A DNA stretch of 38,788 bases from an uncultured Succinivibrionaceae bacterium. Lineage in GTDB: Bacteria; Pseudomonadota; Gammaproteobacteria; Enterobacterales; Succinivibrionaceae. The notes below the pieces were generated by a model. That model saw only the letters and a program-made list of their open reading frames with translations, was not told the origin of the DNA and did not search any database. Positions 13,951 through 31,408 of this stretch are shown here, piece after piece. The position numbers and the translations under genes are program-made. The stretch spans positions 1 to 38,788 of the forward strand of contig CALXNU010000014.1 in NCBI GenBank assembly GCA_944389835.1, read 5' to 3'. Numbering within the stretch: position 1 is the first letter of the stretch; each line of letters starts with the position of its first letter.

Positions 13951-16900
13951 GTGCTAAAAAGCGGTCTTTACGAATTACTGCTTAATGAGGGTCTTGCTAA
14001 ATTTTTAGAAGAGCAAAACGAACTCTTTCCCAACACCTGTAACTTAAAAGACCTTGATCAAGAGTTTTTGCTAGAGCTTTTTTCACAAACGATAAAAACA
14101 AAGGCCAAAGAGCTTTTAAAAAAGCAACCTTTAAATGAGCAAATAAGAATTTTTAATAATCTTATCCAAAGTCTAAACGGCTCTTCCCTACCTCAAAGTG
14201 ACCCTCAACTTTTAAAACAATTAAGTACTACAAAAGAGCTTATTACCACCCCTTCAACTAAACTTAGTGAAACAGTGCTTTTTACCGGTGGCACGCACCA
14301 TCTCCACCTTTTTGAGGAATTGCGCCGAGAGATCATGTCCGCAGATAGCATTGATTTTTTGGTCTCCTTTATTCGCGACAGTGGTCTTAATATTATTTTC
14401 TCGGCCCTTAAAGATTTCACCGCAAAAGGTCACAAACTTAGGATCTTAACTACTACCTATATGGGGGTAACTGAGGCTTCTGCCCTTGAAAAATTAGCCA
14501 CACTTTCCAATTGTGAAATTAAGATAAATTACGATGAGGACAATTTAAGGCTTCACGCTAAAGCCTATATTTTTAGACGCGAAAGTGGCTTTTCTACTGC
14601 CTATATTGGATCATCAAACCTCTCTTATAGCGCTTTAAATGAAGGCCTTGAGTGGAACATTAAACTTTCCAAACAGCAATTGCCAGAGACCTATCAAAGC
14701 ATTTGTGACACCTTTGAAACTTACCTTGAAAATCCAAGTTTTAAAAGCTTTAGCTTGCAAGATGCACCGAAGCTTGAGGAGATCTTAAAAAAGGTTAAAT
14801 GTCAAAAAGAGCTTAAAGCAAAGAGCCCCACTGTACTAAAACCTCTTCCTTTTCAGGAACAAATTTTAGATAGGCTTTGGTATTTGCGCGATAAGCTTAA
14901 GCAATACCACAATTTAGTGGTTGCCGCCACAGGTACAGGAAAAACGGTAATTTGCGCTTTTGACTTTAAGATCTTTGCCTCAAAACTTAAAAGCTCCGAT
15001 ACAGGCTTAAAAAAGTACCCGACCTTATTATTTGTAGCTCATAGAAAAGAGCTTCTAGAACAGGCCCTCTTAACCTTTAGAAAAGTCTTAGATGATAAAA
15101 ATTTTGGCCTGTTAGCTACAACAGGCTCTAAGATTGAAAACCCACAAGCGCTTTTTATTAGTGTGCAGCTTTTAAACTCAAGAAAAATTTGGGAGCAATT
15201 TGCTGAAGATTATTTCTCTTATCTAGTAGTCGACGAATTTCACCACGCAGCCGCGAGCAGCTATCAAGGCTTTCTAAATTACTTCAAACCCAAAATTCTC
15301 TTAGGTCTTACCGCCACCCCTGAGCGCATGGACGGTCTTGATATCAGTAAAATGTTTAACCATCAATATGCCGTAACCCTAAGACTTCCTGATGCCATTA
15401 ATCAAGGACTGCTCTGTCCTTTTGAGTACTTTGTGATAAGTGATCTTATAGATTTAAGCGAGGTTGAGTTTAAGCATGGCGACTATGATCAAAAAGCTTT
15501 GGAGACAAGCTTAACTTGTGGTCAAAAAGCCTTTGATCGTATTGATCTTATTAAAGATGCTCTTGAAAATTACGCCCCTAATTCTCAAAAAATTAAAGCT
15601 TTGGGCTTTTGCGTAAGTATCAAGCACGCAAAATTTATGGCTTTGGAGTTTGCCAAAGCAGGCTTTAAATGTGACTATCTCACAGGGATGCACAGTGAAA
15701 AAGATAGAGAAAATGCTCGGCAAAACCTTGCAAGTGGCAAAATTAATTTCCTTTTTGTGGTAGATCTTTACAATGAGGGCGTCGACATCAAAGAGATCAA
15801 TACCCTACTTTTTCTAAGGCCTACCAATTCCCTGACCATTTTCTTGCAGCAGTTAGGGCGCGGTCTTCGTTTGTGTGAGGGCAAAGATTGCGTCACGGTT
15901 TTAGATTTTGTGGGACATGCCAATCAGAAATATAATTTTCACTCCCGCTTTAATGCGCTTTTCACCACGCGTCGTGAAAGTCCTAACTTTCTTATTGAGC
16001 AGGAAAAACAAGGCTTTAGTGATTTGCCACAAAATTGCTATCTTGTGATGGAGCAAAAAGCTCAGCAAATTATCTTTGAGCACCTTAAAAAAGCCATTAA
16101 AGACTCACAATATCAGGTCTTAATAGATGCGCTAGCAGACTTTTTATCCTCTCAAGAAAATGTAGATCCTTCTTTAATCGACTTAAGCACCAAGGTTGAG
16201 CAAAACGTCCTTACCCTCTATCAAAAGAAAAAGACTACTTTAGGCGAGCTTCTAATTAAGGCTAAAGGTTTAATTGAGGAGGAAAACCCCCAAAATTTCA
16301 TTACACCATTTTATGATGAGCACAAAGAAATTCGCGATTTTTTCCTGCGCTTAAGCCAAACCTTTAATCCAAGCCTCAACGATTTTATTCGCGCCTTTAT
16401 CTCAGGGAAATTTGAGGATTTTGACAAATTAAGCGATCATGATCGTGCACTTTTTAAGGTTTTGTTTAGACTCTTCTCCCCAAACACCATCTATCACACT
16501 CCAAATTATGTAAAATACGTGCAAAAACCTCAGTTTGACAAGCTAAAGACCTACTTCAAACAGCCTTTTGTAAGCACTGAGACCTTAAATATCATAGACT
16601 TCAAGGAATTTAGCCAGGAGTACCAAAGCGCCTCCCTCCCTGCTAAGGAGCACAGTCTTCTTAACTATTATGGTGTTTATACTCGCTATGGGATTTTAAC
16701 TTCCTTAGGCTGTGATCAAGATGGAGCCTCAATGCGCGAGGGCGTGAAATACATAAAAGAGATTGGAACTGACGTCTTTTTTATTACCCTTAACAAAGAA
16801 AAGGGACGTTTTACACAAAGAACCCGCTATGACGATTACCTTATAGATCAAAACCTAATTCACGTAAAAAGTCAAAACCAAACTAAGGAGACAAGTGATA

Positions 16901-17088
16901 CTGCCAAACGCTACTTTGATCCTAAATCTAAGATCCTCTTGTGTGTAAGAGTTGAAAGTGATGATCCTTATACGGTCTTAGGCTTTGGCCAATGCGTAAA
17001 ACACGAAGGCAGTGGCCCAATTTCTTTGACCTATAAGCTTGATAGAGCTTTGCCATACTCTTTGTATGCAAAATTTACTAATTTTTAG
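13951..17088 (+). CDS. PLD-nuclease / SF2 helicase / DUF3427 defence-type protein
   Basis: The 1045-residue protein joins three parts. An N-terminal phospholipase-D-like nuclease domain has LHAKAYIF (His202, Lys204) and GSSNLS with Glu234. An SF2 motor has Walker A ATGTGKT (326-332), DEFH (428-431), TATP (454-457) and QQLGRGLR (633-640). The C-terminal ~200 residues (YTRYGILTSLG, GFGQCVKHEG) resemble DUF3427, probably a DNA- or modified-base-reading domain. The start is GTG with AGGAG six bases upstream. Such proteins act as ATP-dependent restriction or antiphage nucleases. Its stop overlaps that of the convergent cytosine methyltransferase, a plausible protective partner. The pairing is inference. 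Confidence 0.85.
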   Translation: MLKSGLYELLLNEGLAKFLEEQNELFPNTCNLKDLDQEFLLELFSQTIKTKAKELLKKQPLNEQIRIFNNLIQSLNGSSLPQSDPQLLKQLSTTKELITTPSTKLSETVLFTGGTHHLHLFEELRREIMSADSIDFLVSFIRDSGLNIIFSALKDFTAKGHKLRILTTTYMGVTEASALEKLATLSNCEIKINYDEDNLRLHAKAYIFRRESGFSTAYIGSSNLSYSALNEGLEWNIKLSKQQLPETYQSICDTFETYLENPSFKSFSLQDAPKLEEILKKVKCQKELKAKSPTVLKPLPFQEQILDRLWYLRDKLKQYHNLVVAATGTGKTVICAFDFKIFASKLKSSDTGLKKYPTLLFVAHRKELLEQALLTFRKVLDDKNFGLLATTGSKIENPQALFISVQLLNSRKIWEQFAEDYFSYLVVDEFHHAAASSYQGFLNYFKPKILLGLTATPERMDGLDISKMFNHQYAVTLRLPDAINQGLLCPFEYFVISDLIDLSEVEFKHGDYDQKALETSLTCGQKAFDRIDLIKDALENYAPNSQKIKALGFCVSIKHAKFMALEFAKAGFKCDYLTGMHSEKDRENARQNLASGKINFLFVVDLYNEGVDIKEINTLLFLRPTNSLTIFLQQLGRGLRLCEGKDCVTVLDFVGHANQKYNFHSRFNALFTTRRESPNFLIEQEKQGFSDLPQNCYLVMEQKAQQIIFEHLKKAIKDSQYQVLIDALADFLSSQENVDPSLIDLSTKVEQNVLTLYQKKKTTLGELLIKAKGLIEEENPQNFITPFYDEHKEIRDFFLRLSQTFNPSLNDFIRAFISGKFEDFDKLSDHDRALFKVLFRLFSPNTIYHTPNYVKYVQKPQFDKLKTYFKQPFVSTETLNIIDFKEFSQEYQSASLPAKEHSLLNYYGVYTRYGILTSLGCDQDGASMREGVKYIKEIGTDVFFITLNKEKGRFTQRTRYDDYLIDQNLIHVKSQNQTKETSDTAKRYFDPKSKILLCVRVESDDPYTVLGFGQCVKHEGSGPISLTYKLDRALPYSLYAKFTNF

Positions 17089-18038
17089 CAGGATCGATTT
17101 GCCATTAAGGCCTCTTTAAGTTTAAGGCCTACCGCCAAAGCCATAGGCGGTGGAAAAGCATTGCCTATTAGGCGACAGGCAATGGTTTTGCGCTCTCCAA
17201 AGTTCCAGCTCTCAGGAAAGCCCTGCAATCTTGCAAGCATCTTAGCTGTAAGACGAGGCATTCCCTCAAGATCTTTATCTGGTGCTGCGTTGGCAATCGC
17301 CAAACCATCCACTCCAAGTTGCGCCCAGGCAGTTCTTGATCTTACCGGCCCCAAATCAGGACCGCCATGTTTTTTAGAGCCACAAACTAAGGTTGGGGCA
17401 ATTTTATTGGCTTGCTTGGCCCAAATTTTGGCCTTTTCCCAACCATTTTGCGACATCAGATCATACAAAGCCTCACCTACCGTTAACGAAGGTGTCTCTT
17501 GAGGTTTTGGAAAGCTAAAACTTACATTTTCAGATCTTAAAATACCAATAATAACGACCCTTGGCCGCAATTGAGGCCCCCCAAAATCTGAAGCTTGCAA
17601 AAGCTTAAGTTGTACCTCATAACCTAATGCTTTAATTTGACTTAAAATTAAATTTCGATAATTCTCAAATTTGGGGGATAAAAAGCCTTTGACATTCTCA
17701 AGCATTACAGCACGCGGTTTAATCTCGCGAATTAACCTTATTGCCTCAGGAAACAAATCCCTTTCATCCTCCGGCCCTAATTGCTTGCCTGCAATTGAAA
17801 ATGGCGGGCAGGGAACTCCTCCTGAAAGCAAGTCCACACCCTGAAAAGGCGCTCCTCTAAAGTTGTGCAGATCTTCGCAAATTACAGGCCACTCCGGGCG
17901 ATTATATTTTAGGATCTTGCAGTACCTCTCCTCAATCTCAACTAAAGCTACCGGGACAAAACCTGCCATAGCCAAACCTAAAGCTTGCCCTCCTGCTCCC
18001 GCACAAAGCTCAATAAATGTTAAGGGTCGAAAAAACAT
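17085..18038 (-). CDS. DNA (cytosine-5-)-methyltransferase
   Basis: A 317-residue C5-methyltransferase. Motif I FIELCAGAGGQALGL (residues 8-22) binds S-adenosylmethionine, the catalytic PCPPFS has Cys77, ENV is at 114-116, the QLRPR motif VIII is at about 156-160, and motif X is GNAFPPPMA near the C-terminus. The target recognition region between motifs VIII and IX is short, so the target is probably a simple short site. It converges on the PLD-helicase gene with overlapping stop codons, which suggests one restriction-modification unit of opposed genes. An orphan methyltransferase is the alternative. Confidence 0.93.
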   Translation of the reverse strand: MFFRPLTFIELCAGAGGQALGLAMAGFVPVALVEIEERYCKILKYNRPEWPVICEDLHNFRGAPFQGVDLLSGGVPCPPFSIAGKQLGPEDERDLFPEAIRLIREIKPRAVMLENVKGFLSPKFENYRNLILSQIKALGYEVQLKLLQASDFGGPQLRPRVVIIGILRSENVSFSFPKPQETPSLTVGEALYDLMSQNGWEKAKIWAKQANKIAPTLVCGSKKHGGPDLGPVRSRTAWAQLGVDGLAIANAAPDKDLEGMPRLTAKMLARLQGFPESWNFGERKTIACRLIGNAFPPPMALAVGLKLKEALMANRSC

Positions 18039-18253: not shown

Positions 18254-18859
18254 ATGGCTAAGCTTTCTGAAGGCGAGATCATCGACAAATTAATAGAGCT
18301 TAAAGACTCTTTAAGTCAAAAATGGGAACCTGAGGTTTTCTTTTCTACCTTAATGACAATTTATGGCACCGCACAATCCTCAATTAGCGAGGCTTTAAAA
18401 GGCAATCCTGCCATTAACGTGGCAAGTGATGTTGAAGATCCAAGCCTCTTGCATAAGGATTTAGCAATTAAAAATCGTGCTTATTTTAGATTTCTAAAAG
18501 AAGATACTAACGTTCGTGAGAGCCTAGATCTTTTAGTTGAGAGTGAAGCTTTTAATCGTCAAAGCTCAAAACTGCAATTTGCAATTTGTGCAGGTCCAAA
18601 TTTAATCTCAATCTTCGATAAAATCGATAAAACCTACAATACCTTTGAGCTTAAAGAACTGCCCAACAACTATAATTTACTCCTTCCTTTAACCACCGGT
18701 TACAAGCGTTTTGTGGCAACTGATGGTACTGAAGCTGATGTTCGAGCTTGCACTAAACTAACTAAGCTTTTATATGATCTTGCAAAGCTCAACAACATTG
18801 ATTTACTAAGAGAGAGAGAGAGAGAGAACATAATTTTAAGAGTCAAGGCCACGCTCTAA
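18254..18859 (+). CDS. N-terminal part of a phase-variable DNA methyltransferase (frame OFF)
   Basis: The start is the ATG at 18254 (MAKLSEGEII), with AAGGA six bases upstream. In this sequence the frame ends after 201 residues at TAA 18857-18859, just past a (AG)9 tract. The sequence after the tract continues the same protein in another frame, so this is the 5' part of one 18254-21135 gene. The N-terminal region resembles the MmeI/YeeA N-terminal module (FELKELPNNYNLLLPLTTGY aligns with its end), but the D...ExK nuclease residues of MmeI are not evident. As it stands the product lacks all methyltransferase motifs and is probably inactive. Confidence 0.8.
   Translation: MAKLSEGEIIDKLIELKDSLSQKWEPEVFFSTLMTIYGTAQSSISEALKGNPAINVASDVEDPSLLHKDLAIKNRAYFRFLKEDTNVRESLDLLVESEAFNRQSSKLQFAICAGPNLISIFDKIDKTYNTFELKELPNNYNLLLPLTTGYKRFVATDGTEADVRACTKLTKLLYDLAKLNNIDLLRERERENIILRVKATL
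18809..18826 (+). repeat. (AG)9 simple sequence repeat, predicted phase-variation tract
   Basis: Nine perfect AG units encode Arg-Glu repeats in frame 1. The upstream frame has codons at 18809; the downstream methyltransferase frame has codons at 18811. Losing one unit (8) or gaining two (11) would join them, giving RERERE then HNFKSQGHALNEF. Slipped-strand change of such tracts is an established ON/OFF switch for DNA methyltransferases in other bacteria. Confidence 0.85.
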
Positions 18860-19116
18860 ACGAGTTTATCCGTAGGATCTTATTTTGTCTTTTTGCAGAA
18901 GACACCGGTATTTTTAAATATGACAGTCAAGGCAATTTAAATTACGAAAACCGCTTCACCAAAGCTTTAAGCACCCTTACCAATCAACATGGCACTAATA
19001 CCAAGCAATTCTTTGAAGATCTTTTTGAAGTTTTAAACACTCCCCTAAATGAGCGTAAAAACATCAAGCGCCCCATCTCTCAAGTCATTTTAGACTTTCC
19101 CTATGTCAACGGTGGT

Positions 19117-21135
19117 TTGTTTGCAGGCGAGAGCTTTATACCTGAGTTTAATACTACCACCCGCGCTGAGCTTTTAGACTTAGGCAAAATGGCCTGGCAT
19201 GAGATTTCCCCGGCTATTTTTGGCTCCATGTTCCAAAATGCTTTAGATCCTAAAACCCGCCGTGAAATGGGCGCTCATTACACTAGTGAAGCAAATATTC
19301 TAAAGATCATCAATCCACTTTTCATGGATAGCCTGCGCGATGAGTTTGAAAAAATCAAATCTCTCCCCACAGGGGAGGATGAGAATAACACAAGACTTAA
19401 AAGTCGCTTAGCTAAAGCGCGTCAAGAGGCTTTAATGGCTTTCCAAAATAAGCTTGCCTCTTTAAAGTTCTTAGATCCTGCCTGTGGTTGCGGTAACTTC
19501 TTAATTATTGCTTACCGCGAATTACGTCGCCTTGAAAATCAAGTGCTTGAAGAGCTCTTTTCTCAAAGGGGTTGGATCCTGGAGGTAGGTGAGGCCATTA
19601 AAGTAAACATCAATCAATTTTATGGAATCGAGATTGAAGATTGGCCTTCTGAAATTGCACATTTATCCATGTGGCTTATGCAGCATGTGATGAATCAAGA
19701 AACCTCTCAAAAGTTTGGTGTTGACATCCCCTCCATTCCTCTTAAAACCTCAGCTACTATCGTCTGCACTAATGCTCTCACATGTGATTGGCAGGAAATT
19801 TTACCTGCAAGTGAATGCTCCTATATTTTAGGCAATCCCCCCTTTGGTGGTACTACCTATACCACATCCGAGCAAAAAGCCTGGCTTAAAGCGGTCTATC
19901 CGCCAAAATATACATTAGCTTTAGCTGACTTTTGTACCGCCTGGTTTGTTAAAGCAAGCTCTTACATGCAAGAGAACAAAACTATTCGTGCCGCTTTAGT
20001 TGCCACCAATTCCATCTGCCAAGGACAACAGGTAAACACCCTCTGGGGCTTACTTTTAAATAAAGGGGTGCACATTAACTTCGCCTGGACTTCTTTTATG
20101 TGGTCCAATGAAGCCTCCAATAAAGCTGCCGTCACTTGTATTATCGTAGGCTTTTCTTATCACAAAGATCTTCTAAATAAGATCTACTCGGTAAGAGAGG
20201 ATGGCAGTATTGCAGTTATTAATACCCCGAATATTTCACCCTATCTTTTGCCATCTCAAAAATCGGTCATTGTCAAAGCCCAAAGTAAAGCTCTTAGCGC
20301 AAAACTTAATTTAAAATTTGGCAATAAACCTTGTGATGGAGGCAACTTACTGTTATCCCCTCCTGAATATCAAAAAGTTATCTCTAAAGATCCTTTACTT
20401 AAACCTTTTATCAAATATTTTAGAGGTAGTGATGAGCTTATCAATGGCACCTATCGTTATTGTTTATGGCTAAAGGAAGAAGATAAAGCGCTTTGGGAAA
20501 AAATACCCTTTATCAAAAATCGGGTTGAGGCTTGTTATAACTTTAGAGCAAATGCCACTATAACCGGTGATGCCTTTAAACTTAAAGACAAACCATGGTC
20601 ATTTAGAGAGCAATTTAACCCCCATTACGCCTTAATTATTCCTGCCGTAAGCTCTGAAAGACGCTTTTATGTACCTATGGATTTCATAGATAATGACACT
20701 ATCATTAGCAACCGTTGTTTTATTCTACCTGAGGCTCAACCTTATGATTTTGGCATTTTAGTCTCAAGAATGCATATGTGTTGGATGAGGCTTACTTGTG
20801 GCAGATTAAAGACAGACTATAACTATTCAAGAGATTTAGTCTACAACACCTTTATTTGGCCAACTACAAACCCTGAGCAAGAAAAATTAATCTCTGACCT
20901 TGCAGAGAAAATCATCATGATCCGTGACAATCACCTCATCGCAGATGATCCCATTCCAACTTTAGCCACACTCTATAACCCGGAGAGTATGCCAGCGGAT
21001 CTAAAAGAGGCTCATCAAAGATTAGATATTGAGGTTGAAAAACTCTACCGTGAAGAGCCCTTTGAAGACGATGATGAGCGCACGGTTTTTATGCTTGATT
21101 TATATGCCCAAAAAGTACAAGAGGTAAAGGAGTAA
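19117..21135 (+). CDS. catalytic part of the phase-variable class I SAM-dependent DNA methyltransferase
   Basis: This is the 3' part of the gene that begins at 18254. The frame is open from 18802, but its first usable start codon is TTG at 19117 with no convincing ribosome binding site. It holds motif I LDPACGCGNFL (19471 onward), IEIEDWPSEIAHLSMWL and the adenine-type catalytic NPPFGG (19834 onward). A target-recognition-like region (FRGSDELINGTYRYCLWL, TCGRLKTDYNYSRDLVYNTF) and a C-terminal helical end follow. The region just after the AG tract (LFCLFAEDTGIF) is the MmeI-family helical spacer signature. The restored protein would have about 959 residues. The downstream helicase starts 5 bases after its stop. 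Confidence 0.88.
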   Translation: MFAGESFIPEFNTTTRAELLDLGKMAWHEISPAIFGSMFQNALDPKTRREMGAHYTSEANILKIINPLFMDSLRDEFEKIKSLPTGEDENNTRLKSRLAKARQEALMAFQNKLASLKFLDPACGCGNFLIIAYRELRRLENQVLEELFSQRGWILEVGEAIKVNINQFYGIEIEDWPSEIAHLSMWLMQHVMNQETSQKFGVDIPSIPLKTSATIVCTNALTCDWQEILPASECSYILGNPPFGGTTYTTSEQKAWLKAVYPPKYTLALADFCTAWFVKASSYMQENKTIRAALVATNSICQGQQVNTLWGLLLNKGVHINFAWTSFMWSNEASNKAAVTCIIVGFSYHKDLLNKIYSVREDGSIAVINTPNISPYLLPSQKSVIVKAQSKALSAKLNLKFGNKPCDGGNLLLSPPEYQKVISKDPLLKPFIKYFRGSDELINGTYRYCLWLKEEDKALWEKIPFIKNRVEACYNFRANATITGDAFKLKDKPWSFREQFNPHYALIIPAVSSERRFYVPMDFIDNDTIISNRCFILPEAQPYDFGILVSRMHMCWMRLTCGRLKTDYNYSRDLVYNTFIWPTTNPEQEKLISDLAEKIIMIRDNHLIADDPIPTLATLYNPESMPADLKEAHQRLDIEVEKLYREEPFEDDDERTVFMLDLYAQKVQEVKE

Positions 21136-21140
21136 ACACT

Positions 21141-23255
21141 ATGGCTTTACAACAAGAGACTTTAGTTAAGATTGATTACAGTCAAAATCAAGGACATCAG
21201 CAAAGCTACCCGATGGGCATGAGACAAATGCAAGCAAGGGCCTTTGAGAAAAGAGAGAGTCCCTACCTTTTAATTAAAGCCCCTCCTGCTTGCGGTAAAT
21301 CGCGGGCGCTTATGTATTTAGCCTTAGATAAACTTTTTCATCAGGGTATAAAAAAGGTGATTGTAGCCGTGCCACAAATGGCAATTGGCTCAAGCTTTAA
21401 AGACACTGAGCTTAAAAGCTCAGGCTTTTTTGCCAATTGGCATGTAGAAAATCGCTATAACCTCTGCACTCCAGGAGGAGAGCAAAGCAAATCTGACACC
21501 GTCATTGAATTTATGCAAGATCCTCAAGCGCAGTGTCTTATTTGTGCTCATCCTACTTTAATCTATTTTTACCAAAAGATTAAAGATGATCCTTCTTTTA
21601 AAGATATTTTAGATAAGAGCCTTATTGCCATAGATGAGTTTCACCACGTGTCAGCCGAAGAAGGCAATCGCTTAGGTGAGGTGATTCACTCTTTAATGAA
21701 TACAACTAAAGCGCAAATTATTGCTATGACCGGATCTTATTTTAGAGGTGATCAAGTCCCGGTACTAAGTGAAGGCGATGAGAGCAAATTTGATAAGATC
21801 ACTTACACTTATTACGAGCAATTAAGTAGTTACAAATATCTAAAATCTATTAGTATCAATTACGCTTTTTACGAGGGCGTGTGGACAGATGCCATAAGCG
21901 AGGCTTTAGATCCAACACTTAAAACCATCATTCACATTCCAAATGTGAATTCCAGAGAGTCTACCAAAGATAAGATCAATGAGGTAGGTGAGATCATTGA
22001 CTTTTTAGGCAAAAACCTAGGTCAAGATCCTAATACAGGCATCATTTCTGTAAAAAGAGCCGATGGTACGATTTTAAGGGTTGCCGATTTAGTAAGCGGT
22101 AGTGAAACTGGAATGCAGGCTACCACCTTAAATTACTTAAGGACCGTCACCAAACGCGAAGACGTTGATATCATCATTGCTTTAGGTATGGCCAAAGAAG
22201 GCTTTGACTGGCCGTGGTGTGAACATGCCCTTACGGTTGGTTATCGCAATTCTTTAACTGAGGTTGTTCAGATTATTGGCCGCGCCACACGAGATTGTGA
22301 GGGTAAAACTCATGCCACCTTTACTAATCTTATAGCCAAACCTGATGCTTTAACTGAGGACGTGGAAGGTGCTGTCGACAGCCTTTTAAAGGCCATTAGC
22401 CTCTCACTTCTAATGGAGCAAGTTTTAGCACCTAACGTACACTTTAGAGTAAGAGGTGAGGAGACCAAACCTCTTGTTGATGATCAAGAGCGAGACCTTA
22501 CCTTTATCATTGATGACACTACATATAAGCTCTCTCCTGATGCCAAGCGCATTTTAGATGAAGATCTAAACGATCTAGTAAGCAAACTTATCAATGATCC
22601 GCAAAAAATCAACGAAGCATTAGTTTGCAAAGACAATGTTATGCAACTTTTAACTGAGGGTACTATCCCGGCGATGATTGAAGATAAGTATGCCCAAGAA
22701 TTTACTGATGAGGAGCTTGAGATCATGACCAAAGCTATTGCCTTACAGATTGTCGCCCCTTATCTTGAAGAGTATTTGCAAAAATTAAAAGACAAGCCTA
22801 AGTCTCCAGACGGCAAGACAGACCCCGATGATAATGATAAAGATCAAGGTTCTAGCGGAGATGCTAGCCATAAAAAGCGTGAACCACCAAAAGATGGCTC
22901 TGATACCTCAGGTGATAATAAGCCTATAAACCCAACTGGTTCTATTATTCCTGAAAGGAATGATAGTTTTATTAAGGTTAACGATAAGTTTTTGAATGTG
23001 GATGACTTCGATTTTAGCTTGATCTTAAAGATCAATCCTTTCCAAAAAGCTTATGAGTATATCTCAAGGAATCTTGATCCTAAGGTTTTTAAAGCCATTC
23101 AAGACCGAGTAATTGAAAAACGCGCTCAAGTTTCTGATAGGGAAGCTTTTATCTTATGGCCAAGCGTTGAAAACTTTGTTAGAGAAAATGGTGTTGATCC
23201 TAATCCCAACTCCCCTGATCCTTATGAACGTCGTTTAGGTGAGGTTTTAAGATGA
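21141..23255 (+). CDS. SF2 DEAD/DEAH-type helicase of the methyltransferase-helicase-nuclease operon
   Basis: The 704-residue protein has Walker A APPACGKS (47-54), DEFH (165-168), TGS (197-199) and motif VI QIIGRATRD (377-385), so both RecA lobes look intact. Residues about 550-610 are a low-complexity Asp/Lys/Pro/Ser/Gly-rich linker, followed by a separate C-terminal domain of ~100 residues (KVNDKFLNVDDFDF onward) that I do not recognise. AAGGAG overlapping the methyltransferase stop is its ribosome binding site. Restriction-type translocase is the likely role, by context. With the methyltransferase out of frame, expression could fall through translational polarity. Confidence 0.85.
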   Translation: MALQQETLVKIDYSQNQGHQQSYPMGMRQMQARAFEKRESPYLLIKAPPACGKSRALMYLALDKLFHQGIKKVIVAVPQMAIGSSFKDTELKSSGFFANWHVENRYNLCTPGGEQSKSDTVIEFMQDPQAQCLICAHPTLIYFYQKIKDDPSFKDILDKSLIAIDEFHHVSAEEGNRLGEVIHSLMNTTKAQIIAMTGSYFRGDQVPVLSEGDESKFDKITYTYYEQLSSYKYLKSISINYAFYEGVWTDAISEALDPTLKTIIHIPNVNSRESTKDKINEVGEIIDFLGKNLGQDPNTGIISVKRADGTILRVADLVSGSETGMQATTLNYLRTVTKREDVDIIIALGMAKEGFDWPWCEHALTVGYRNSLTEVVQIIGRATRDCEGKTHATFTNLIAKPDALTEDVEGAVDSLLKAISLSLLMEQVLAPNVHFRVRGEETKPLVDDQERDLTFIIDDTTYKLSPDAKRILDEDLNDLVSKLINDPQKINEALVCKDNVMQLLTEGTIPAMIEDKYAQEFTDEELEIMTKAIALQIVAPYLEEYLQKLKDKPKSPDGKTDPDDNDKDQGSSGDASHKKREPPKDGSDTSGDNKPINPTGSIIPERNDSFIKVNDKFLNVDDFDFSLILKINPFQKAYEYISRNLDPKVFKAIQDRVIEKRAQVSDREAFILWPSVENFVRENGVDPNPNSPDPYERRLGEVLR

Positions 23256-23268
23256 AGGAGGACTAATC

Positions 23269-24600
23269 ATGCTCCTTAATCTTAACCTGGTGAAGAAAAA
23301 GCCTCGGCCGAGATCTTTAGAGGAAGTTTTGGCCAATGATAAGTTAAATCTTCTCAAGGTAAATGAAGACAACACTCCAAAAGCTGCAACTTTAGATCAT
23401 AGCCTGGAGATTTTTGCTCCTATTGAGAAATTTGTCGGGCAATTTAAGCGTTTACCTGATGAGAAAAATGGCAACTTTAATGAAAAGCGCCTTGCCAATC
23501 AACTTCTGTCTTTAAAAGACTCTCACCCCAAGGAATTTGAGGACTTTTTAGCGCAACATCAAGAGCTACTTAAAAATAATAAGCCAACTTATCAAGCACA
23601 AAAAGATCATGTAAGCCCAAAAGACAGCATAAATGAATCAATTAAGCCTCTTTCACCAAGGATCTACTCCTCTTTAGATGAAATCTTAGAGCATGATGAT
23701 TTAGGCTTGCTTGAAGGCTTAGATATTTTAGATACAGGGCCTAAGACTAAACGCAAAACACCTGATACGATAAACCCAGCACAGATGGTGGCAAAAACTA
23801 TCCCCTGCCTTGAATTTGAGCTTTTTAAACCCTGCTTTGATAAACTTAAGCTTTTAATTTCAGAAAATGCTTTGAAACTTGAGCCCTTTAAAGGTCTATC
23901 TTTTAACCTTGAGCGAGGACAATTTTTTATTTTAAAAGGGCAATATGCATTAATTGCAAGTGCGGATAACGACAAACCTGAGATCTATGCTACGCATAAA
24001 CATTTTAGAGTGCGCGTAATTTTAGAGAATGGAACTGAATACACACCTTTAAATCGCTCTTTTATACGAAGTCTTGATGATAATGAGCAAAGCTTTAAAG
24101 TTTTAGCTTCTAAAAAAGAAGGTGAGAGATTTTTAGCTGAGCTTAAAGACTATCTTAAACATCCAAGTTCTGATCCCAACCTTACCACAGGCTATCTTTA
24201 TGTCTTAAGATCAAAAAGTAACAATCAGGCTTTGCAACAATTTATGCAAACAAGTGATCTTTTAAAGATTGGTTTTTGTAGCACTACGGTTGAAGAGCGC
24301 ATTGCCAATGCTAAAAATAGTCCCACCTATCTTTGCTCTGAGGTTGAGATCTGCCAAACATATCGCTGTACTAACAACATTAACCCGCATCAAGTCGAGC
24401 GCCTTGTTCATGCGCTTTTAAATGAACATCGGCTCAATATTACTTTAAAAGATAACTTTGGAAAAACCTATCGCCCACATGAATGGTTTACCGTGCCCCT
24501 TGCAACCGTCGAGCAAATCATCGCGCATATAATAGATGGCACCATTCAAAACTATCGTGTAGATCCGCTACGCGGTAAATTAGTCCAAATTAACTCTTAA
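23269..24600 (+). CDS. GIY-YIG (T5orf172/MUG113-like) nuclease
   Basis: The C-terminal ~130 residues of this 443-residue protein carry a GIY-YIG fold of the T5orf172 type: GYLYVLRS (308-315), LLKIGFC (331-337), Arg344, the helix VERLVHALL with Glu377 and His381, and PHEWFTV with Glu405. The N-terminal ~300 residues are unknown. They contain two similar motifs, SLEEVLANDKLNLL (16-29) and SLDEILEHDDLGLL (135-148). The ribosome binding site AAGGAGG is near perfect and lies 13 bases after the helicase stop. It is probably the DNA-cutting subunit of the operon; cleavage is not shown by sequence alone. Confidence 0.83.
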   Translation: MLLNLNLVKKKPRPRSLEEVLANDKLNLLKVNEDNTPKAATLDHSLEIFAPIEKFVGQFKRLPDEKNGNFNEKRLANQLLSLKDSHPKEFEDFLAQHQELLKNNKPTYQAQKDHVSPKDSINESIKPLSPRIYSSLDEILEHDDLGLLEGLDILDTGPKTKRKTPDTINPAQMVAKTIPCLEFELFKPCFDKLKLLISENALKLEPFKGLSFNLERGQFFILKGQYALIASADNDKPEIYATHKHFRVRVILENGTEYTPLNRSFIRSLDDNEQSFKVLASKKEGERFLAELKDYLKHPSSDPNLTTGYLYVLRSKSNNQALQQFMQTSDLLKIGFCSTTVEERIANAKNSPTYLCSEVEICQTYRCTNNINPHQVERLVHALLNEHRLNITLKDNFGKTYRPHEWFTVPLATVEQIIAHIIDGTIQNYRVDPLRGKLVQINS

Positions 24601-26370: not shown

Positions 26371-27648
26371 TTAGCGCGCCTCTTTAAGATAAGCCTCAGG
26401 GCCTCTTACTATTCCCTCTCCTTCTTGTGCCTTAATCTTAGTATTGACTATGGTGCCTTCCACATAGCGGGCTTGAATGCCAAGTTTGCTCTCAATCTCT
26501 ACATTCTCAAAGTACACCTCTAAAACATGCGACTCAGGAAGGCCGCTTAAAAGAGCTGCAATATTGGCGTTTTGCGCCTTAAAATTAGTGATTCTAACGC
26601 CTTTAACATAAGGAGTCGTAGCACTTATTTCCTCTTTATCAAGAGGATCTACTAAGCCTAAACCTGCAGCCCCCGACTGCCCTGCATAGGTTAAAGTCAC
26701 TAAAATTGGGGTTTGCACATTATCCATTTCAACCTTATCGACAATTAAAGGTCCAATCTTATTGCCTCTGTCGCGGGCGGATTTAATGCGCACCCCATTC
26801 TCGCCATCTTTAAATTTAACCTTTAAAACTTCAACCTGCCCAATGCCGTTGGCAGTCTCAGATCCTACGGAAATACCATGGCCTGAGAGCATGACACTAT
26901 TTTCAATTAAAATCTTATCTGAGGGTTTTGAATTGTCTTGATTTACCCCTGATTTAATTGAGATATTGTCATCTCAGGTGTGAATTAAGACTTCATTAAT
27001 ATGAATTTCTGAGGATGAGACAATATCAATGCCATCGGTATTAGGTGAATATTCAGGGGCATCAATCTTTACTTTTTCAATCTTAACCTTTGCGCAATCT
27101 CTTAACACCACATTCCACATTGGAGAATTGCAAAGACTCAAACCCTCAAGTGAAGCCTCTTGAACCTTATTAAACTCAATTAACCAAGGACGTGGCATAC
27201 CATTGGCAAGCTTGACATTAGGAAAGCGCTTTTCAAAAAATGCGCCATTACCAGCTCTTATGGCCTCCCGCACCTTTATAGCCTCATCCTACCAATTCTC
27301 AGCCCCAGATCCGTCAATAACGCCCTCACCTTTAAGGCCAATATGATGCGCTTCATTGGCAAAAATAAAAGCCTCGTTTTTGGCAAAGGGATGACCAATA
27401 TAAGCGTTTACAAAATCTCCGTTTCGATTATCCGCCTTTAAAATCGCCCCCTTTACAAGCTCTAAAGTCACCCCACTTTTAAGCTCAATAGGACCTGAAA
27501 GCCACAAACCCTCTGTTAATTGCACAATGCCACCGCCTGCTTTAAAACAGGCCTCAATGGTCTCTTGTATAGCTTGAGTGTTTAAATGCTCTGTTCCACA
27601 AAGACCACCAAAATCACTGACCTTATAGACTTTAAGGCTCTCTTGCAT
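26371..27648 (-). pseudogene. polygalacturonase-like glycoside hydrolase (GH28), two in-frame stops
   Basis: One reading frame from ATG 27648 (ribosome binding site GAGGA) encodes a GH28 beta-helix enzyme that would cut pectin. It is interrupted by TAG at 27291-27289 and TGA at 26976-26974, with no frameshift. The first falls after GAENW, where a second Trp (TGG) would fit. The second falls in HT-stop-DDNISIKSG, where the family has TGDD, so GGA to TGA is the likely change. The catalytic signatures survive: NTDGIDI, DD, GHGIS and RIKS. There is no signal peptide, so the substrate was probably oligogalacturonate. The decay looks recent. No pectin-uptake genes are nearby. Confidence 0.85.
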
Positions 27649-30781: not shown

Positions 30782-30859
30782 GATTTAGATCTCTTGCAAA
30801 ACTTGACCAAACTATTTTAAAGATTTTTTTTAAAGCTTACAGCTCTTTTGCCAAAAATA

Positions 30860-30881
30860 TTTTATAATTATTTTTATAAAA
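30860..30881. promoter_or_regulatory. inverted repeat, candidate TetR operator
   Basis: TTTTATAA (30860-30867) and TTATAAAA (30874-30881) are perfect complements separated by six bases. A perfect TATAAT (30863-30868) lies inside the left arm, so binding would block a plus-strand promoter for the OYE gene. The sequence is very AT-rich and could arise by chance. Confidence 0.4.
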
Positions 30882-30904
30882 GTCATTACAAAATTGGAGT
30901 TACT

Positions 30905-31408
30905 ATGGATACCATCCTTTTTTCACCTGAAACTTTAGGAAATTTAAAGCTTAAAAACCGCCTGGTGGTACCGCCGATGTGCACTTGGAAGGCCAAAGAT
31001 GGCATGGTACAAGATTTTCACCTTCACCACTATGCAATGCTTGCAAGCTCAGGGGTGGCGGCAGTTACAATTGAGGCTACCGCAGTAAGCCCAAATGGGC
31101 GCATTTCACCTTGGTGTTTGGGCATTTGGGATGAGGAAAGAGCACAAGGCATTAGCAAAATTGTCAAAACCATTCACGACAGTGCCCAAGATGTAAAGGT
31201 TATCTTACAGATAGCTCACGCAGGACGTAAGGGAAGCTGCTCACCTGAAACTGACTCTACCGTACCGCAATCTTTAGGAGCCTGGCAAACAGTTGCCCCT
31301 TCAGCAATAAGTCCAAAAGACGCTGTGGCAATTCCCCACGAGCTTTTAGAAAGTGAAATTAAAGATTACGTTAAAGCTTTTGCTAAAGATCCGATAAATC
31401 TAAACTAA
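30905..31408 (+). pseudogene. Old Yellow Enzyme family NADH:flavin oxidoreductase, 3' half deleted
   Basis: The start is the ATG at 30905 with GGAG upstream. The product begins as a normal OYE: LFSPETLGNLKLKNRLVVPPMCTW, FHLHHYAMLASSGVAAVTIEATAVSP, LQIAHAGRKG (shortened cores; FMN-binding region and His of the barrel). It stops at 167 residues, right after the helix DYVKAFAK, while the family has about 340. The usual continuation with GFDVVEIHGAHGYL is absent from all downstream frames before truA. I infer deletion of the C-terminal half of the barrel, leaving a non-functional product. Confidence 0.8.

Follow-up and report, generated by a model that had tools for sequence, protein, structure and literature searches.

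The window analysed here, the whole 38,788-base contig C14 of a draft genome (2.41 Mb, 142 contigs) from an uncultured Succinivibrionaceae bacterium, contains a DNA methyltransferase gene whose reading frame is broken at a run of nine AG dinucleotides. The named relatives recovered through sequence comparison are MAGs of the same family, namely Candidatus Anaerobiospirillum pullicola, Candidatus Avisuccinivibrio stercorigallinarum, and one uncultured member. The locus raises the question of whether this tract is a switch that turns the gene on and off, or the mark of a gene that has been lost. The evidence assembled below makes it probable that (AG)9 is a slipped-strand phase-variation ON/OFF switch for the methyltransferase of a DnmA-YeeB-YeeC-type operon, set to OFF in this assembly. 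From the single assembly of the species that was examined, we infer that the number of AG units changes between cells.

The AG tract and the reading frame of the methyltransferase gene

The methyltransferase gene (18254-21135, about 2.9 kb; Table 1) has a single frame break, located exactly at the 18-nt AG tract, and is open elsewhere. The upstream reading frame starts with an ATG at 18254 preceded by AAGGAA, reads ...NIDLLRERERENIILRVKATL, and ends with TAA at 18857-18859. The downstream frame, which is in phase with 18811 and has AAC as the first bases after the tract, is open as far as 21135 (777 codons). Each half is stop-free in its own frame only, with 0, 13, and 28 stops per frame in the upstream half and 0, 44, and 87 in the downstream half. 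By unit arithmetic, seven, eight, nine, ten, eleven, and twelve AG units would give products of 191, 959, 201, 193, 961, and 203 aa, respectively. The first-pass annotation had placed the tract at the exact frame break, with upstream codons in phase with 18809 and downstream codons with 18811, and had predicted a stop ending at 18859 at nine units and a protein of about 960 residues at eight or eleven; all of this is borne out. Its further statement that no ATG lies near the tract in the downstream frame also holds, the earliest start-like codons being TTG at 19117 and ATG at 19189, the latter approximately 360 bases 3' of the tract. The gene is thus OFF at nine units in this assembly, and eight or eleven units would yield the full-length enzyme.

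Table 1. Features of the methyltransferase operon in the window.
Feature	Coordinates	Strand	Description	Source
Methyltransferase, upstream part	18254..18859	+	Putative MmeI_N-like domain without nuclease motif; 201 aa at nine units	Pfam
(AG)9 simple sequence repeat	18809..18826	+	Frame break; proposed slippage switch	
Methyltransferase, downstream part	18827..21135	+	Other frame; helical spacer, N6-adenine methyltransferase domain, target recognition domain (TRD), C-terminal domain	Pfam, PDB
SF2 helicase	21141..23255	+	YeeB-like by position and family; motifs APPACGKS, DEFH, and QIIGRATR intact; AAGGAG before ATG	
T5orf172/GIY-YIG nuclease	23269..24600	+	YeeC-like by position and family; AAGGAGGA before ATG; T5orf172 3e-15	Pfam

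The length of the tract is far above chance, since a first-order Markov model predicts approximately 5e-5 AG tracts of at least nine units per genome (2.41 Mb, both strands). A pattern search of this genome for tracts of at least six AG units found three, with nine units at this locus, ten on contig C65, and six on contig C54.

Domain architecture and operon context

The upstream part of the methyltransferase matches MmeI_N at 2e-4, a value under the curated Pfam cut-off, and appears to be a diverged MmeI_N domain. The downstream part matches the Pfam families MmeI_hel, MmeI_Mtase (3e-88), MmeI_TRD (4e-68), and MmeI_C, and aligns with MmeI itself (Type IIL, PDB 5hr4) at E 1e-174 across the spacer, methyltransferase, TRD, and C-terminal domains that the two proteins share. 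The motifs DPACGCGNF and GNPPF are present in its N6-adenine methyltransferase domain, in agreement with the first-pass reading of the gene as an adenine methyltransferase. In contrast to MmeI, the window enzyme and its clade lack the D..E-x-K (PD-(D/E)xK) nuclease motif: alignment and a regular-expression check recovered it as D...EHK in five MmeI-like controls (L042-L046) and did not find it in the window clade, and a further check found D...EQK retained in the self-contained MmeI-like enzymes of the family. The top PADLOC matches of the methyltransferase are Type IIG. Assignment to the Type IIG/IIL restriction enzymes of the MmeI family was rejected because the nuclease motif is missing from the methyltransferase polypeptide.

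The position of the tract within the fold was assessed on the structure predicted for an intact homologue, L036 (mean pLDDT 78), whose best structural match is MmeI (Foldseek 2.5e-57). The tract site corresponds to residues 178-186 of this model, which join helices 155-177 and 186-203, and is predicted to be a surface loop of variable length. In intact homologues it forms a short turn, which reads NHID-DVHRHALN in a protein of the same genus, and the window sequence aligns with approximately 12 more residues there. An in-frame insert at this point is likely to be tolerated, because a more distant homologue has approximately 24 extra residues at the same site.

The methyltransferase is the first gene of a predicted three-gene operon, with an SF2 helicase gene second and a T5orf172/GIY-YIG gene third; these two encode the probable translocase and nuclease of the system. 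Both downstream frames are intact in the window, and the helicase matches Pfam DEAD at 1e-7 and ResIII only at 2e-4, under the curated cut-off. A Type III restriction-modification system was rejected on the grounds that the methyltransferase is MmeI-like, the ResIII match falls under the cut-off, and the nuclease is encoded separately, by a GIY-YIG gene. The trio recurs among Succinivibrionaceae relatives. Where the helicase was found in other gammaproteobacterial families (369 genomes sampled), a methyltransferase lies upstream in 11/11 loci and a GIY-YIG gene downstream in ten of them, the contig ending inside the helicase in the eleventh (L116). The same gene order, namely a nuclease-less MmeI-like m6A methyltransferase, an SF2 helicase, and a T5orf172/GIY-YIG protein, is described for DnmA(YeeA)-YeeB-YeeC of Bacillus subtilis in two reports (PMC7261158, PMC9973331). 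On this basis, the operon is assigned to the DnmA-YeeB-YeeC type by its architecture rather than by comparison with the B. subtilis sequences. Used as a control, B. subtilis was positive for the Pfam family PF20473.

The first-pass annotation had suggested that restriction depends on the methyltransferase as specificity subunit, or else that the frame stop silences the downstream genes by polarity. The dependence proposal fits the lack of a nuclease motif in the methyltransferase and the presence of the probable nuclease and translocase in the two downstream genes. It is not new: the earlier work suggests a Type I-like dependence for DnmA-YeeB-YeeC and describes normal growth of a B. subtilis dnmA deletion strain that has yeeB and yeeC (PMC7261158). 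A broken methyltransferase also stands beside open helicase and nuclease frames in two other genomes (L106, L114), and these two lines of evidence together make the dependence plausible. Both downstream genes have their own AGGAG Shine-Dalgarno-like sequence just 5' of the ATG, so that polarity could silence them but need not do so.

Repeats in homologous genes

No AG tract was found at this site in any of the homologues aligned, and the same-genus and family homologues are full length there; conservation of the tract was accordingly rejected. Other repeats were found in related genes. Three homologous operon copies from two Succinivibrionaceae MAGs carry CTGC tracts that vary in length between loci, with (CTGC)7 in L038, (CTGC)15 in L039, and (CTGC)21 in L040. 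All three tracts lie exactly at the joint between the methyltransferase domain and the TRD, and all three genes are out of frame there. A pattern search of the family recovered four CTGC tracts of at least six units, three of them in the methyltransferase gene. In addition, a G9 tract close to the methyltransferase/TRD joint interrupts the frame of an MmeI-like enzyme with an intact D..EQK motif (L082:6040-8948; G064:C148); this enzyme is self-contained and has no helicase or GIY-YIG neighbours. All of the family homologues that contain a long repeat are therefore broken at it (AG9 in the window, CTGC7, CTGC15, and CTGC21 in the three operon copies, and G9 in L082), a count in which related tracts are not independent. 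Approximately 30 complete homologues from the family have no repeats except A/T runs of 8-9 and one (GC)5.

A tree built from the methyltransferase domain places tract-free sisters next to the AG carrier, the CTGC carriers, and the G9 carrier, and the three types of tract thus represent, as judged from this tree, three separate gains. The TRD segments past the CTGC tracts show dN/dS values of 0.24-0.34, which point to purifying selection even though the assembled sequences have these segments out of frame, as expected if the ON state is visited. For the window gene, synonymous sites were saturated in the comparison with its relatives. Long AG tracts are not a common feature of the family: tracts of at least eight units were found by pattern search in only 6/56 family genomes, and most of those outside the window genome fall in or next to short ORFs that represent no obvious gene. 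Two MAGs, G060 and G063 (contigs L086-L099), contain unusually many long AG tracts, mostly in or beside such short ORFs.

Two further DnmA-type methyltransferases, both from other families, are broken without repeats by a TRD deletion and a small indel, respectively (L106:1944-4047 and L114:7124-9935), and these were excluded from the phase-variation count because their breaks are not at repeats. Another methyltransferase copy (L041:7446-9773) passes into GntR-like regulator sequence approximately ten codons before the CTGC site and near a contig end, a junction that reflects recombination or misassembly. No further copies of the gene were found in viral contigs, as searched by protein and by the exact tract flank, or in plasmids.

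The CTGC loci have an additional feature. Free-standing TRD/C-terminal ORFs lie between the interrupted methyltransferase and the helicase in two of them (L038:8314-9324 and L039:10637-11719); these ORFs are conserved between two sister MAGs at 86% identity, with a dN/dS of 0.32, and each has its own ATG and an AAGGA-like signal. This anatomy suggests, as a speculative and rather unlikely reading, that the repeats could switch DNA specificity and not just ON/OFF state, with the OFF frame yielding a methyltransferase that has no TRD of its own and takes up the second one in trans, thereby swapping its motif. If so, the AG tract of the window would be a simpler ON/OFF form of a repeatedly gained switch.

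Probable phase variation, alternative explanations, and related systems

Under the phase-variation reading, slippage during replication would change the number of AG units, and one third of the tract lengths would be ON. In the ON state, one adenine motif would be methylated and probably restricted. In the OFF state, there would be no methylation, and also no restriction if target recognition by the nuclease requires the methyltransferase. The advantage is likely to be a population that is mixed for phage defence, for methylation-dependent gene expression, or for both.

Points counted against a switch are the nonsense-broken GH28-like gene in the same window and the methyltransferases of the same operon type broken without repeats in L106 and L114, which indicate that such genes are also lost by ordinary mutation. 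These observations are what would be expected if one slip at a mutable tract had recently been fixed and the methyltransferase were a young pseudogene. We consider a fixed loss unlikely, since the gene has no second lesion across 2.9 kb, the helicase and nuclease frames are intact, repeats recur at the broken sites of homologues, and the CTGC group shows selection past its tracts; in any event, a slip at a repeat of this kind can revert. A miscounted tract, with a true majority length of eight units and the gene ON, would be in keeping with a draft genome in 142 contigs and with the other repeat-bearing or homologous stretches of the family that stop at contig ends (L041, L096). However, an 18-nt dinucleotide tract fits well inside one short read, and the frame is likewise broken at the three CTGC loci and the G9 locus, which come from other assemblies; these points make a consensus or assembly error very unlikely. 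Finally, slippage of RNA polymerase or the ribosome on the repeat could allow some full-length enzyme to be made even at nine units, so that the tract would set a rate, and by arithmetic a one-unit change in the transcript does restore the frame. No sequence evidence of a programmed shift was found, however, and an out-of-frame Mycoplasma strain with AG12 is described as without activity in PMC3498834; we regard a rate-setting tract as less probable still. Replicative slippage between ON and OFF states remains the preferred explanation of the AG tract.

Methyltransferases switched by simple sequence repeats are well known, among them Type III mod genes and the Type IIG enzyme Cj0031. The mod gene of MmyCI from Mycoplasma mycoides is inactive with (AG)12 and active with (AG)10 (PMC3498834). 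Like the window gene, it encodes an adenine methyltransferase and carries its AG tract within the coding sequence, ends at a TAA just past the repeat when out of frame, and leaves the nuclease to a separate gene (PMC3498834). In contrast to this Type III mod gene, the window methyltransferase is MmeI-like, and a GIY-YIG protein and a separate helicase take the place of a Res subunit. Cj0031 of Campylobacter jejuni is a phase-variable Type IIG enzyme with a G9 tract (PMC4889913). The likeness lies in simple-repeat slippage, which we infer for the window, in a large single-strand-methylating enzyme (PMC4889913). The two differ in that Cj0031 has its own nuclease, whereas no nuclease motif is present in the window enzyme, whose partners are separate proteins; the self-contained G9-bearing enzyme of L082 is the close parallel to Cj0031.

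The available text of the DnmA reports mentions no simple sequence repeat in dnmA and no phase variation of the gene (PMC7261158, PMC9973331). Nor was a report of such variation in a DnmA-YeeB-YeeC-type system found in a search of mainly open-access literature, a result that is weak evidence. As far as these searches reached, the putative phase variation of this system type by a simple sequence repeat is new. DnmA-YeeB-YeeC operons are widespread. The B. subtilis system shows no restriction and is apparently inactive in this respect, and homologues in Vibrio crassostreae affect phage sensitivity (PMC9973331). If phase variation does operate in the related operons of gut Succinivibrionaceae, through independent repeat gains at two places in the gene, the system probably is active, carries a cost, and is subject to selection. 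In that case, the AG and CTGC variants would provide natural ON/OFF alleles for asking if GIY-YIG nuclease function depends on the methyltransferase.

Several minor observations were made elsewhere in the genome and the window. The (AG)10 tract on contig C65 (G000:C65:4273-4292) lies inside a Cof-type HAD phosphatase-like gene (L006:3605-4432, minus strand) whose frame is open across the tract; no homologue of this gene was found at E 1e-20 in 12 relatives, and the tract is a possible second switch locus of the genome. The GH28-like gene of the window (26371-27648, minus strand) is interrupted by two in-frame stop codons, contains no repeat, and is an ordinary pseudogene; an Old-yellow-enzyme-like ORF (30848-31408) is truncated at 186 codons. 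Upstream of the operon, a PLD-helicase-DUF3427 gene (13951-17088, plus strand; Type IV-like by PADLOC) converges with a C5-cytosine methyltransferase gene (17085-18038, minus strand) with an overlap of 4 nt, and together these genes (13951-18038) form a second restriction-modification-like pair beside the operon.
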